Shown here one piece after another: positions 14,032 to 47,183 of a stretch of 64,000 bases of DNA. Position numbers and translations under genes: made by a program. The notes under the pieces were generated by a model, which saw only the letters and a list, made by a program, of their open reading frames with translations, was not told the DNA's origin and ran no database searches. Position 1 is the first letter of the stretch. Each line of letters begins with the position of its first letter. Source of the stretch: Cellulomonas alba (GTDB lineage: Bacteria > Actinomycetota > Actinomycetes > Actinomycetales > Cellulomonadaceae); NCBI RefSeq assembly GCF_030362835.1, contig NZ_JAUCGQ010000001.1, positions 744,001-808,000 of the forward strand, in the 5' to 3' direction.

Positions 14032-15369
14032 TCAGTCGCGCACCGCCTCGCGGCTGAACTCGGCGCCGAGCGCCTCGAGCTTCTCGGTGAAGTGCTCGTA
14101 GCCGCGGTCGATCAGGCTGATGCCGCGGACCGCGGACGTGCCCTTGGCCGCGAGCGCCGCGATCAGGTGGCTGAACCCGCCACGCAGGTCGGGCACCTCG
14201 ATGTCGGCGGCGGACAGGGGCGTCGGACCGCTGATGACGGCCGAGTGGTAGAAGTTCCGCTGGCCGAACCGGCACGGCCGGCCGCCGAGGCACTCCTTGT
14301 AGACCTGGATGGTCGCGCCCATGCCGATCAGCGCGTCCACGAAGCCGAAGCGGTTCTCGTACACCGTCTCGTGCACGATCGAGAGCCCGCGCGCCTGCGT
14401 CAGCGCCACGACGAGCGGCTGCTGCCAGTCCGTCATGAAGCCGGGGTGCACGTCGGTCTCGAGCTGGATGGAGTGCAGGTCGCCGCCCGGGTGGAAGAAC
14501 CGGATGCCCTCGTCCTGCACCACGAACTCGCCACCGACCTTGCGGAACGTGTTGAGGAACGTCGTCATCTCGGGCTGCGTGGCGCCGCGGACGAACACGT
14601 CACCGCCCGTCGCGAGCGCCGCGGACCCCCACGACGCCGCCTCCACGCGGTCCGCGAGGGCCGTGTGCTGGTAGCCGTCGAGGCGGTCGACGCCCTCGAT
14701 GCGGATGACGCGGTCGGTGTCGACCGAGATGATCGCGCCCATCTTCTGCAGCACGTTGACGAGATCCATGATCTCGGGCTCGATCGCGGCGCCGGACAGC
14801 TCGGTGATGCCCTCGGCCCGCACCGCCGTGAGCAGCAGCTGCTCCGTGGCGCCGACGCTCGGGTACGGGAGCGCGATCTTCGTGCCCTGCAGGCCGCGCG
14901 GCGCACGGAGGTAGATGCCCGTCGGGGTCTTGTCCACCTCGGCGCCGAACTGCCGCAGGATGTCCAGGTGGTAGTTGATCGGCCGGTCGCCGATCCGGCA
15001 GCCGCCCAGGTCCGGGATGAACGCCTCTCCGAGGCGGTGCAGCAGCGGCCCGCAGAACAGGATCGGGATGCGTGAGGCGCCCGCGTGCGTGTCGATGTCG
15101 GCCACGTGCGCGGACTCGACGGCGCTGGGGTCGAGGTGCAGCGTGCCGGCCCCCGGGTCGGCGTCCACGCGGACGCCGTGCAGCTCGAGCAGGCCGGTGA
15201 CGACGGCGACGTCGCGGATCTCCGGCACGTTGCGCAGCAGGCTGGGCGTCTCGCCGAGCAGCGCCGCCACCATGGCCTTGGACACGAAGTTCTTGGCGCC
15301 GCGCACGGTGATCTCGCCCCGGAGGGGGTTGCCGCCGTCGACGTAGAGCAGGTCTGTCACGCGCCCCAT
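14032..15369 (-). CDS. murA: UDP-N-acetylglucosamine 1-carboxyvinyltransferase
   Basis: MurA commits UDP-GlcNAc to peptidoglycan by adding enolpyruvate from PEP. The 445-aa product begins with the EPSP-synthase-like motif GGNPLRGEITVRGAKNFVSKA. The catalytic Cys is C124 in PDLGGCRIGDRP; having Cys rather than Asp predicts normal fosfomycin sensitivity for the family. GRPCRFGQRNFY and DRGYEHFTEKLEALGAE occur near the C-terminus. The gap of 128 bases to plsC holds no obvious gene. The ATG start at 15369 has no strong Shine-Dalgarno. Confidence 0.95.
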   Translation of the reverse strand: MGRVTDLLYVDGGNPLRGEITVRGAKNFVSKAMVAALLGETPSLLRNVPEIRDVAVVTGLLELHGVRVDADPGAGTLHLDPSAVESAHVADIDTHAGASRIPILFCGPLLHRLGEAFIPDLGGCRIGDRPINYHLDILRQFGAEVDKTPTGIYLRAPRGLQGTKIALPYPSVGATEQLLLTAVRAEGITELSGAAIEPEIMDLVNVLQKMGAIISVDTDRVIRIEGVDRLDGYQHTALADRVEAASWGSAALATGGDVFVRGATQPEMTTFLNTFRKVGGEFVVQDEGIRFFHPGGDLHSIQLETDVHPGFMTDWQQPLVVALTQARGLSIVHETVYENRFGFVDALIGMGATIQVYKECLGGRPCRFGQRNFYHSAVISGPTPLSAADIEVPDLRGGFSHLIAALAAKGTSAVRGISLIDRGYEHFTEKLEALGAEFSREAVRD

Positions 15370-15565: not shown

Positions 15566-16399
15566 ATGAGGTTCGGCATCACCGGGACGTGGGGCTCGCC
15601 GTCCGAGCTGCTGGAGGTGGCCGTCGAGGCCGAGCGCGCAGGCTGGGACGGGTGGTTCACGTGGGACGGCGTCAGCCTCGGCGACTGGCCGTCGTGGGCC
15701 CCGTGGACGCTGCTGGGGGCGGCGGCGCAGGCCACGAGCCGCCTCCGGCTCGGCGCCGTCGTGTTCGCGCCGGGCAGGCGCCTGCCGTGGGAGCTCGTCC
15801 GCGACGTGCTCACGGTGGACCACCTCTCGGGCGGCCGGCTCGTGCTGCCCGTGGGGCTCGGCGTGACGGACGACGCGGCCGTGGCGCGCGTGCGAGGCCT
15901 GCCGTCGGCTGCGCGCGATCGTGCGGCGCTCCTGGACGAGAGCCTCGAGTTCCTCGAGCGGGCGCTGCGCGGCGAGAAGTTCTCGTTCGACGGCGCCGCG
16001 CACGGCATCGAGGACGCGCACTTCCTCCCCCTCCCCGTCCAGCGGCCCCGGCCACCGGTCTGGGTGGTGGGCGCGTGGCCGAGCGACCGTTCGCTCGCGC
16101 GTGCCGCGCGGTGGGACGGCGTGCTCCTCCAGCGCCTGCGCAGCGAGGAGCCCTGGACGCCCGAGGACGCGGCTCGGGCCGTCACGCGCGTGCACGAGCT
16201 GCGCGCCGAGCAGGGACTGCCCGACGAGCCGTACGACGTGGTGCTCGACGGCACGCTGCCCACGGACCGCGCGGAGCGCGCGGACCGTCTCGCGGCCCTG
16301 GCCGAGGCGGGCGTCACGTGGTGGATCGAGTCGCACTGGGCGCCTGCGACGAAGCCGGCGGACCTGCTCGCCCTGGCGCGCGGCGGCCCGCCGGCCTGA
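15566..16399 (+). CDS. LLM-class flavin-dependent oxidoreductase
   Basis: A 277-aa luciferase-like monooxygenase (TIM barrel, flavin or F420-dependent family). Visible signatures are MRFGITGTWGSPSELLEVAV, GWDGWFTWDGV, a beta-barrel core with RLRLGAVVFAPGRRLPWELV, and PPVWVVGAWPSDRSLARAARWDG. The substrate is unknown. The ATG is chosen because the conserved N-terminus starts there and AGAGG lies upstream. It is divergent from murA, with about 200 bases between them, and convergent with the HU gene. Confidence 0.85.
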   Translation: MRFGITGTWGSPSELLEVAVEAERAGWDGWFTWDGVSLGDWPSWAPWTLLGAAAQATSRLRLGAVVFAPGRRLPWELVRDVLTVDHLSGGRLVLPVGLGVTDDAAVARVRGLPSAARDRAALLDESLEFLERALRGEKFSFDGAAHGIEDAHFLPLPVQRPRPPVWVVGAWPSDRSLARAARWDGVLLQRLRSEEPWTPEDAARAVTRVHELRAEQGLPDEPYDVVLDGTLPTDRAERADRLAALAEAGVTWWIESHWAPATKPADLLALARGGPPA

Positions 16400-16423: not shown

Positions 16424-17134
16424 CTACTTCTTCTTCTTCTTTCCCTTGGCCTTCGCCTTGTCGCCCTTCGACTTGCCCTTGCCGTGGGACTTGTCCCTGC
16501 CGTAGGACTTGTCCCTGCCGTAGGACTTGTCCCTGCCGTAGGACTTGTCCTTGCCGTGGGACTTGTCCTTGCCGTGGGACTTGTCCTTGCCGTGGGACTT
16601 GTCCTTGCTCTTCGCCTTGTCCTTCGTCACGTCCTTCGCGTGGGCGCGCTTCGCGTCCGTGACCTTGCCGCCGCGCCCGCCCGTCGCCTTGCCGCCGTCG
16701 GCAGCACCGCTCGCCGCCACAGCGGCCGTGGCGGCGCCGGCTGCGGCGGGGCTGGGCGCCTCGGCCGGAGGCGGCGTCGCGCGGTACTTCTTGACGTTGC
16801 CCGTCACGGTGGTGTCGAGGCCCGAGAGGTCGATCGGCGGCCGGCCGTCGTGGCCACCACCTGCGGCGACGGCCTCGCGCAGCCCGGCGCCCGGGTGGAA
16901 CCGGGCGACCGTCGTGGCTGCGACGGTCACGGTCGATCCCGTGCGCGGGTTGCGCGCCGTGCGCTCGGTGCGCGCCACGGCCTCGAACGTGCCGAACCCG
17001 GTGAGCGTGACCCGCTCACCCGCGGCGAGCGCGTCCGTGATCTCCGCGAGCACCGCATCGAGTGCCGCCGTGGCGGCCGCCCGGCTGGCACCGCGGGCCG
17101 CGATCCCCTCGACGATCTGAGCCTTGCCGACCAT
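16424..17134 (-). CDS. HU family DNA-binding protein with long lysine-rich repeat tail
   Basis: A 236-aa nucleoid protein. Residues 1-90 form a standard HU domain (MVGKAQIVEGIAA, TLTGFGTFEAVARTERTARN, with the DNA-binding arm around RNPRTGSTV). After an Ala/Pro linker, the C-terminal ~75 residues are extremely basic. They contain seven tandem copies of a hexapeptide of the type KDKSHG or RDKSYG and end in KKKKK. Long Lys-rich tails are known in actinobacterial HU (HupB), but this regular Asp-Lys-Ser-His/Tyr-Gly repeat is unusual. ATG at 17134 is chosen because the HU domain starts there and AAGGGA lies upstream. Confidence 0.92.
   Translation of the reverse strand: MVGKAQIVEGIAARGASRAAATAALDAVLAEITDALAAGERVTLTGFGTFEAVARTERTARNPRTGSTVTVAATTVARFHPGAGLREAVAAGGGHDGRPPIDLSGLDTTVTGNVKKYRATPPPAEAPSPAAAGAATAAVAASGAADGGKATGGRGGKVTDAKRAHAKDVTKDKAKSKDKSHGKDKSHGKDKSHGKDKSYGRDKSYGRDKSYGRDKSHGKGKSKGDKAKAKGKKKKK
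16481..16606. repeat. 18-bp minisatellite, seven copies, inside the HU gene
   Basis: Seven contiguous 18-base units (16481 to 16606) of the form GCCGTGGGACTTGTCCTT, differing at a few positions (GTG/GTA, CCCT/CCTT). Being in multiples of 3, copy-number change would add or remove whole hexapeptides from the HU tail without a frameshift. Confidence 0.95.
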
Positions 17135-17228
17135 GGACGTTCCCTTCACCGCAGGGATCGTGGCCCGCGGGGCGCGGACCACCCGCGAACACGCTAGGCC
17201 ACCGTGCGCGGCGAGATGGCCGAAATGA

Positions 17229-17278: not shown

Positions 17279-17947
17279 TCAGGCGCCGGGTCGGTGACCG
17301 ATCTCGACCGGGACCACCGGGCGCGCGGCCTTGATCTCGACCGTCGGGAGATGCTTCGCGGGCAGCGTCGTCGGCCGCCACGACGCGCGCTGCTGCTCGA
17401 ACGAGGCGATCTCGTCCGCGTGCTGCAGCGTCAGGCCGATGTCGTCGAGCCCCTCGAGCAGACGCCACCGGGTGTAGTCGTCGACCTGGAACGGCACCAC
17501 GACGTCGTCGCACGTGATCGTCTTCGACTCGAGGTCGACGGTGATCTCCGTGCCCGGGCGCGTCTCGAGGATCTTCCAGATCAGCTCGATGTCCTCCTGC
17601 GAGGCCACGGCGGCCAGCAGACCCTGCTTGCCCGAGTTGCCGCGGAAGATGTCGGCGAAGCGCGCCGAGATCACCACGCGGAAGCCGTAGTCCTTGAGCG
17701 CCCACACCGCGTGCTCACGCGACGAGCCGGTGCCGAAGTCGGGGCCGGCCACGAGCACCGAACCGCTGCGGTACGCGTCCTGGTTGAGGACGAACGACGG
17801 GTCGCCGCGCCACGCCGCGAACAGCGCGTCCTCGAAGCCCGTGCGCGTGACGCGCTTGAGGTAGACGGCTGGGATGATCTGGTCGGTGTCGACGTTGCTG
17901 CGCCGCAGCGGGACGCCGACGCCGGTGTGCTGGGTGAACTTCTCCAT
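17279..17947 (-). CDS. leuD: 3-isopropylmalate dehydratase small subunit
   Basis: LeuD is the swivel-domain partner of LeuC, isomerising 2- to 3-isopropylmalate in leucine synthesis. The 222-aa length is normal. It begins [30 protein letters not shown], and the substrate-loop motif is [17 protein letters not shown]. The ATG is preceded by GGAGAAG. It starts 25 bases after leuC on the same strand, so leuC and leuD form one transcript that ends at the hairpin at 17229-17261. Confidence 0.95.
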
Positions 17948-20378: not shown

Positions 20379-20492
20379 CGCGTCGGCACGGCTGTCGCGT
20401 GTCGGCACGGCGATCGCGTGTCGGCACGGCCATCACGCGTCGGCACGGCTCTCACGCGTCCGCGCGGCGATCACGTGTCGGCGCGGTGGGAT
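20379..20492. repeat. 19-bp imperfect tandem repeat, six copies
   Basis: Units start at 20379, 20398, 20417, 20436, 20455 and 20474, with consensus near CGYGTCGGCACGGCNATCA; the last two copies are more diverged. A partial further copy (ACGTCGGCACGATCG) lies near 20501. The array fills the longest gene-free stretch of the window, 20271-20646, between ndgR and the tRNA-Glu terminator. I see no supported gene in that stretch. Confidence 0.85.
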
Positions 20493-45986: not shown

Positions 45987-46010
45987 GGCGCGCCGCCGCG
46001 CGCGTCAGCC
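45981..46010. terminator. Bidirectional hairpin covering both convergent stop codons
   Basis: GGCTGA (45981-45986) pairs with TCAGCC (46005-46010). After one G/G mismatch, 5 more pairs (GCGCG/CGCGC) close a 6-base loop. The outer arms contain the stop codons of the AlkZ-like gene and of the SpoIIM gene. Confidence 0.6.
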
Positions 46011-46994
46011 CGCGACCGCGACCGTGTAGCCCGCGCGGTCGGCCTCGAGGTCGCCGGTCTCGCCGGCCCGCACGGCTCGTCCGCCGAGCACGAGCACGTA
46101 CGTCCAGAACGCCGCGAGGGCGACCAGCCCGACCGCGACCTTCGCGCCCCACGGCAGCCCGGACCCGGTGACGAAACCCTCGATCAGCCCGGACACCAGG
46201 AGCGTGCCGGCGAGCCCGATCGCGACCGTGAACAGCGCGCGCGCCTCGGCGGCGAGCGCACGCCCGCGGGGCCGCGGGCCGGGGGCGAGCCACGTCCAGA
46301 ACACCTTGAGGCCCGCCGCCCCGGCCACGAACACCGAGGTCAGCTCGAGCAGCCCGTGCGGCGCGATGAGCTGGAAGAACACCCCGAGATGCCCGTAGTG
46401 CGCCATGAGGCCGCCGGCGGCACCGACGCCGACGGCGTTGGTGGCGAGCATCCACACCGGCCCCACGCCCGTGATGCCGGTGGCGACGCAGACGGCCGTG
46501 ATCCACGCGTTGTTGGTCCACACCGTCGCCGCGAAGCCCACCCCCGGGTCGTAGTACGACGCGAAGGCCTTGTCGACGTAGTCCGCGCGCTCGGTGGGCG
46601 TCCCCATCGCCGCGAGCGCCTCCGGCTGCGTCGCGACCCAGACGCCCGCGATGACGGCGAGCGCAAGGAACGCGCCCATGACTGCGACGGTCCACCACCG
46701 GATCCGGTACAGCGCCGCGGGCAACCGCACCGCGAGGAATCGCGTGACGTCCCGCCAGCTCGGCTCGTGCGTCCCCGCGATCGCCGCCCTGGCCCTGGCC
46801 AGCAGCTGCGACAGCCGGGAGACGGTGGCGGGGTCGGGCGCGGCCGAGCGGATCACCGAGAGGTCGGTCGCCGCGGACTGGTACAGCCGGACGAGCTCGT
46901 CGGCCTCCGCACCCGTGCGCCGGCGGCTCGAGGCGAGCTCGTCGAGCCGGCGCCACCGGTCGGCGCGCGCGAGCTCGAAGGCGTCCAGGTCCAC
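46005..46994 (-). CDS. Stage II sporulation protein M-like (DUF95) membrane protein
   Basis: A 329-aa polytopic membrane protein of the SpoIIM/DUF95 family, Rv3694c-like. The N-terminal soluble part is helical (VDLDAFELARADRWRRLDELASSRRR, ELVRLYQSAATDLSVIRS). About six membrane helices follow, with the conserved WTNNAWITAVCVATGITGVGP and QLIAPHGLLELTSVFVAGAAG. In this group of actinobacteria it is encoded near MoxR/DUF58 and RDD proteins; it is not evidence of sporulation. GTG at 46994 is chosen because CAGGCT lies 6 bases upstream and the family starts here; GTG at 47000 or 47018 is possible. Confidence 0.85.
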   Translation of the reverse strand: MDLDAFELARADRWRRLDELASSRRRTGAEADELVRLYQSAATDLSVIRSAAPDPATVSRLSQLLARARAAIAGTHEPSWRDVTRFLAVRLPAALYRIRWWTVAVMGAFLALAVIAGVWVATQPEALAAMGTPTERADYVDKAFASYYDPGVGFAATVWTNNAWITAVCVATGITGVGPVWMLATNAVGVGAAGGLMAHYGHLGVFFQLIAPHGLLELTSVFVAGAAGLKVFWTWLAPGPRPRGRALAAEARALFTVAIGLAGTLLVSGLIEGFVTGSGLPWGAKVAVGLVALAAFWTYVLVLGGRAVRAGETGDLEADRAGYTVAVAG

Positions 46995-47046
46995 GCGCAC
47001 AGCCTGCCATCCCGGCACCCCGCCCGACGGCTAGTCTGCGCACACC

Positions 47047-47183
<137 letters not shown>

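Follow-up and report, generated by a model that had tools for sequence, protein, structure and literature searches.

The HupB protein of mycobacteria (LBP, Hlp, Mdp1) and HupS of Streptomyces are described, in the available parts of the literature, as an HU domain followed by a long lysine-rich C-terminal tail. HupB without its tail was found to bind DNA less stably in mycobacteria, with a diffusing fraction of about 96% compared with 67% when the tail is present (accessible part of PMC5676037), and acetylation of HupS made DNA binding about two-fold weaker in Streptomyces (accessible part of PMC11229371). Tail length has also been followed: earlier work cited in the accessible part of PMC7465531 reported that the C-terminal length of LBP (HupB) is variable within the M. 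avium complex, even inside subspecies, and the lbp tail region was of one size in all clinical isolates studied in PMC7465531 itself.

Tails and DNA-binding regions built from repeats have been described as well. In Hc2 (HctB) of Chlamydia trachomatis, as in the protein studied here, a lysine-rich DNA-binding region is made from in-frame repeats, and the repeat number changes between specimens of the same genotype (PMC2848022). Hc2 differs in being called histone H1-like, with no HU domain mentioned in the accessible part of that paper, and in its units, which are 36-aa elements of pentamers and a hexamer compared with 18-bp units here; moreover, variation among specimens was demonstrated for Hc2, whereas our array is known from one genome (PMC2848022). 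Bordetella BpH1 and the Hc2-like proteins of Burkholderia and Ralstonia share short lysine-rich repeats with our protein, and theirs vary in size, but they are Hc2-like and use another unit, and the accessible part of the same paper makes no mention of an HU domain in them (PMC2848022). Pseudomonas AlgP, too, has a disordered C-terminal tail of tandem repeats (KPAA in AlgP), with a repeat number that is altered by rearrangement in isolates, but it carries a helical N-terminal domain and is tied to polyphosphate granule spacing (accessible part of PMC9239181). Repeat-built tails on DNA-packaging proteins are already known, and the array described below is a private example of known behaviour; an actinobacterial HU tail of varying length has itself been published before (accessible part of PMC7465531), and the difference here lies in the unit.

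The gene was studied in a 64-kb stretch of Cellulomonas alba DNA (the window), to which all coordinates refer. The following features make up the locus:

17279 to 17947, minus strand: leuD, the upstream neighbour, used as locus marker (TIGR00171; leuD-HU-murA order in relatives).
16424 to 17134, minus strand: gene for a 236-aa HU family protein with a long C-terminal tail, starting at ATG (translation and PF00216).
16865 to 17134, minus strand: residues 1-90, which form the HU fold domain and include the RNPRTG arm (Pfam residues 4-89, alignment, predicted helices and strands).
16427 to 16864, minus strand: C-terminal tail, residues 91-236, lysine-rich and predicted to be disordered (charge count, pLDDT).
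15566 to 16399, plus strand: luciferase-like oxidoreductase gene of the LLM class, separating HU from murA.
14032 to 15369, minus strand: murA, the next minus-strand gene downstream of HU and the downstream neighbour of HU in relatives (TIGR01072).

The preliminary description had set the array in the tail of an HU protein, and this was borne out by the PF00216 match to the open reading frame (E 2.4e-24, 85.8 bits against a cut-off of 22.4, residues 4-89). A Shine-Dalgarno-like AAGGGA, read by eye, lies at 17141-17146, 6 bases 5' of the ATG. RNP.TG with a conserved proline is the arm motif of the HU/IHF family; here RNPRTG occupies residues 61-66, and R61, P63 and G66 are invariant in 18 aligned HU sequences (this one and 17 of the 31 other Cellulomonas orthologs, G035 being among those left out). 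In the model predicted from the 18 aligned sequences, the HU fold runs to residue 90 (mean pLDDT of 63-96 when taken by tens of residues); past residue 90 structure is absent, and pLDDT is below 50 for nearly all of residues 93-218, so that the chain as a whole has a mean pLDDT of 59.8 and a pTM of 0.28. The tail contains 38 Lys and Arg among its 146 residues, with a net charge of +22, and the frame is open throughout to a final KKKKK. A second HU in the same genome has 93 aa and is without a tail.

leuC and leuD lie directly upstream of the HU gene. At the class level, where leuD matched in 57 genomes and the 30 with the best scores were taken, an HU-domain match was found near leuD in 25 of 30 loci (24 of 29 when our own is set aside). 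In named model species, hupB and hupS are neighbours of leuD. The adjoining leuCD genes, this class-level linkage and the long lysine-rich tail identify our gene as the leuD-linked, long-tailed HU of actinobacteria (HupB/HupS type). Compared with HupB and HupS, its tail lacks the PAKK/KAAK motif and has repeated His and Tyr as well as an acidic Asp in each unit, and the gene type is patchy within Cellulomonas. Since the tail is without PAKK or KAAK, we did not file the protein as a HupB of the PAKK/KAAK type.

To describe this patchiness, 81 Cellulomonas genomes were compared at the leuD locus. The leuD-linked HU gene was present in 32, of which 29 have the gene order leuD-HU-murA; the other three are our own genome, with its extra gene before murA, G006, where the contig ends after leuD-HU, and G063, where the contig starts at HU-murA. 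leuD was followed directly by murA, with no HU match between them, in 46/81, and presence or absence could not be scored in 3/81 (G056, G066 and G071). The leuD tree has 79 rows, and presence was scored for 77 (G063 and G066 left out; G056 and G071, whose contigs end too early, not counted); on this tree the HU presence label changes at least 12 times, and 4 of these changes are forced by starred branches. A 2013 review reported HupS orthologs to be absent from most Micrococcineae (accessible part of PMC4255298), which agrees with the patchy pattern in Cellulomonas. No match to the luciferase-like gene was found at 65 other leuD loci or at 14 further HU loci of the genus, and this gene therefore looks like an insertion in our lineage. 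PF00216 matches were lacking altogether in six of the 81 genomes (G012, G026, G051, G052, G053 and G054), five of which are 97-99% complete, and the leuD-linked tailed HU was the sole PF00216 match in G006, G007, G045, G046, G063, G064, G067 and G069.

The repeat array and its surroundings were divided as follows (unit blocks by comparison of units, with coordinates counted):

16481 to 16606, minus strand: seven 18-bp units, [K/R]DKS[H/Y]G, in frame (TRF score above 200 of 200 codon shuffles).
16607 to 16624, minus strand: KDKAKS, a possible decayed or seed unit adjoining the array.
16550 to 16603, minus strand: three identical type A units (DKSHGK).
16496 to 16549, minus strand: three identical type B units (DKSYGR), with the change of CAC to TAC linked with that of AAG to AGG.
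16478 to 16495, minus strand: one more type A unit (DKSHGK), beyond the B block.
16463 to 16480, minus strand: KGKSKG, a possible decayed unit adjoining the array.

Position and copy number were exactly as the preliminary description had them, with seven 18-bp units filling 16481-16606; they are in frame, lie on the minus strand and encode part of the C-terminal region of HU. TRF reported 7.7 copies with a 95% match and a score of 229, the highest of 81 rows within the window (the second was 167), and when the codons of the tail were shuffled 200 times, no score went above 71. In the coding direction the units run SHG, SHG, SHG, SYG, SYG, SYG, SHG; the order proposed earlier, three SHG and then SYG units, was right up to the last unit, which goes back to SHG. 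When the array is read in the register DKSxG[K/R], every unit is either A (GACAAGTCCCACGGCAAG) or B (GACAAGTCCTACGGCAGG); the order is AAABBBA, units of one type are identical, and B differs from A by two linked substitutions (CAC/TAC and AAG/AGG). Each unit carries one Asp and a net charge of +1, His not counted.

Two further repeats were seen in the window. One, a 19-bp repeat (GTCGGCACGGCGATCACGT-like) of about 5.5 copies at 20379-20486, is downstream of a long plus-strand open reading frame, with no evident gene there; the other, a 9-bp repeat (CGACCGGCG) of 5.6 copies with a 97% match at 47052-47101, is just upstream of the minus-strand open reading frame at 46005-47018.

To ask how the units are related, we compared their codons with a local sample taken from four neighbouring genes (murA, leuC, leuD and the luciferase-like gene) and from the part of HU that precedes the array. 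Ser is encoded by TCC in 7/7 cases and Arg by AGG in 3/3, although TCC makes up 17% of Ser codons and AGG 2% of Arg codons in the sample; AAG for Lys and TAC for Tyr make up 100%. Given the amino acids, the probability that all synonymous choices agree is about 2e-4. The uniform TCC and AGG, together with codon identity at all columns, indicate that the units arose by DNA copying and not by convergence at the peptide level, and the DNA-level duplication claimed before stands, with units that are identical within each type. The B block is weak evidence by itself, because the B units would be contiguous in 5 of 35 possible arrangements; codon identity is the stronger evidence. The simplest history would be an array of A units, one of which gained two substitutions, with the resulting B then copied. 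In its AAABBBA order, the array clearly records how a minisatellite has grown inside a coding tail.

The unit itself appears to be private. Of 32 Cellulomonas tails, our own alone contains the motif [DE][KR]S[HY]G; it has 4 Tyr and 6 His, compared with 0-1 Tyr and 0-3 His in the 31 others. Neither two Tyr nor any His was found in 34 HU tails from other genera in the order (among the matches listed), and in the 24 other class-level tails (from the best 30 of 57 genomes) Tyr was lacking and His occurred once, in a single tail. The unit had been claimed to differ from the AAK/PAKK tails usual in actinobacterial HU, and this held: our tail has a PAKK/KAAK count of 0 and 17 of these 24 class-level tails have one or the other motif; the exact motif is missing in 7/24. 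Conservation of the unit across genera, the second of two observations named in the preliminary description as counting against it, was encountered neither in the genomes examined nor in the other Cellulomonas species examined. Among the literature matches listed, from which subscription papers were mostly out of reach, no paper dealt with the DKS[H/Y]G unit or with a Cellulomonas HU tail.

The unit was also looked for in 396 genomes of the order, by a protein search with the 60-aa end of the tail that holds the repeats. Twenty genomes, our own included, matched at E <= 0.001, giving 20 non-own rows in 19 genomes. Eleven of these rows were inspected: ten were set aside as apparently unrelated low-complexity repeats, several of them also six-residue, and the eleventh (L183) is of uncertain placement owing to a contig end. 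No HU-domain match at E <= 1e-3 was found at any of the 11 inspected loci. The most similar-looking repeats were TDRTHG/TDRAHG in another Cellulomonas genome (G011, L186) and DRSHGP (G431, L188). At L186 the six-residue repeat starts from base 1501 in an 896-aa open frame, and no HU domain was found at the locus.

Next to this private unit, repeats as such are common in HU tails of the genus. The Cellulomonas set comprised 32 tails from 31 genomes, our own included (G061 contributes two; the HU domains of G061b and G064 are identical, and the two could be a single organism). In 20 of the 32, our own included, the tandem-repeat score exceeded that of all 200 codon shuffles, with in-frame arrays. 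The remaining 12 did not beat all shuffles, so strong repeats are not needed for a tail. Units vary, for example KADAK (G013), KKAAE (G033), EKAGKA (G003) and an 81-bp (27-aa) period in G035, but a KADAKKRADA-like stretch is common to a group of near relatives, and the unit is therefore not new in every species. Repeat-built tails are thus common for the leuD-linked HU; the His/Tyr unit is the odd part, and its repeated His and Tyr are unusual, since in none of the other HU tails examined do these residues form a repeat.

Tail length in the genus ranges from 69 to 162 aa. It differs by 2-42 aa in 16 of the 20 closest species pairs by leuD (pairs share members and are not independent), the largest gap being 158 versus 116 aa between G028 and G048 at a leuD divergence of 2.5%. 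Tails are equal in the other four pairs (G069/G046, G024/G042, G069/G067 and G067/G046), at a divergence of 1.5-6.3%; three of these fall inside one trio, whose tails are without a strong repeat. Our net charge of +22 lies within the range of the 31 other tails (12-28), in keeping with a tail that retains its general make-up while its letters are free to change. Charge is, however, no steadier than length: across the orthologs (31 rows) the coefficient of variation was 0.18 for net charge and 0.17 for length. A conserved net charge as the target of selection was for this reason dropped.

Outside the genus, 40 loci were picked among the matches listed for open frames of at least 165 aa and 34 tails were read (four loci gave no frame; L249 and L251 were set aside as misread frames). 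Many of these 34 tails hold strong repeats of their own, with TRF scores up to 534. HU tails with 84-bp and 87-bp tandem repeats of the AAPAKK type were seen at L253 (G187) and L254 (G241), with scores of 403 and 534. Repeats seem to turn over in the HU tail quite generally, with a loose requirement that the tail stay rich in lysine.

We consider it probable that tandem duplication of DNA built the array, as an in-frame minisatellite, within the disordered lysine-rich tail of HU, where composition but not the letters is selected and the tail makes weak DNA contacts. Slippage or unequal exchange inside the tail would have extended the array; two substitutions would have turned an A unit into B, which was then copied to three. 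The HU domain would bind and bend DNA, and the Lys and Arg of the tail would add weak, non-specific contacts, at net +1 per unit, and lengthen the reach of the protein, by analogy with HupB and HupS, by six residues per unit. We infer a DNA-binding role of the tail in its own species from the same analogy. Selection would keep the composition and length range of the tail and not its letters; if it is indifferent to letters, lineages would build their own repeat units, and the choice of unit would be mostly neutral.

Other readings were weighed against this one. The array could be, in line with the tuning of tail length and compaction proposed in the preliminary description, an active length-tuning (contingency) locus, with frequent changes of copy number within the species and a selected tail length that adjusts chromosome compaction. 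Its units are identical enough for slippage, the 42-aa gap between G028 and G048 and the unequal tails in 16 of 20 closest pairs would suit such a locus, and so would the Hc2 repeat numbers that vary among same-genotype specimens (accessible part of PMC2848022) and the LBP (HupB) lengths that vary within subspecies in earlier work (cited in the accessible part of PMC7465531). We nevertheless regard it as unlikely: four of the 20 pairs have equal tails at divergences of about 1.5-6.3%, the lbp tail region was the same size in all clinical isolates of PMC7465531 (accessible part), and a general need for tuning is hard to square with a gene that is missing in 46/81 Cellulomonas genomes. Selection of the His/Tyr units for a special function, such as tail self-association (Arg-Tyr), binding of polyphosphate or metal, or modification of Ser or Tyr, would account for the excess of Tyr and His over the 31 Cellulomonas tails, over the 34 tails of other genera (among the matches listed) and over the 24 class-level tails (best 30 of 57 genomes). 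However, the units were seen in one species, and copying would spread a single transition such as CAC to TAC without selection, which makes this reading quite improbable. A bolder reading, which we hold to be very unlikely, is that one lineage rebuilt its tail from charge-only composition (Lys/Ala/Pro) as a repeat that combines Arg/Lys and Tyr/His with Ser and Gly, similar to those through which condensate-forming proteins self-associate, with copy number setting the strength of condensation; if true, the unit number would set the condensation of HU with DNA or polyphosphate separately from the DNA-bending domain.

Two readings concern the array's origin rather than its use. That the copy number is an artefact of assembly, from a collapsed or expanded repeat, is highly improbable given a frame open to the KKKKK end, two unit types in an ordered block pattern, and an array of 126 bp, a length that fits inside one common short read. 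Convergence on a KDKSHG-like peptide at the amino-acid level, without copying of DNA, can appeal to high G+C, which forces most codons (Lys AAG and Tyr TAC at 100% in the sample), but TCC at 7/7 and AGG at 3/3 are not favoured codons, and we give it hardly any credence. Cellulomonas provides a ready-made comparison, since 32 of its 81 genomes have the same gene at the same locus but tails that range from 69 to 162 aa, many with repeat units of their own. Such tails on one HU domain could show what an HU tail needs: length, charge or particular residues.
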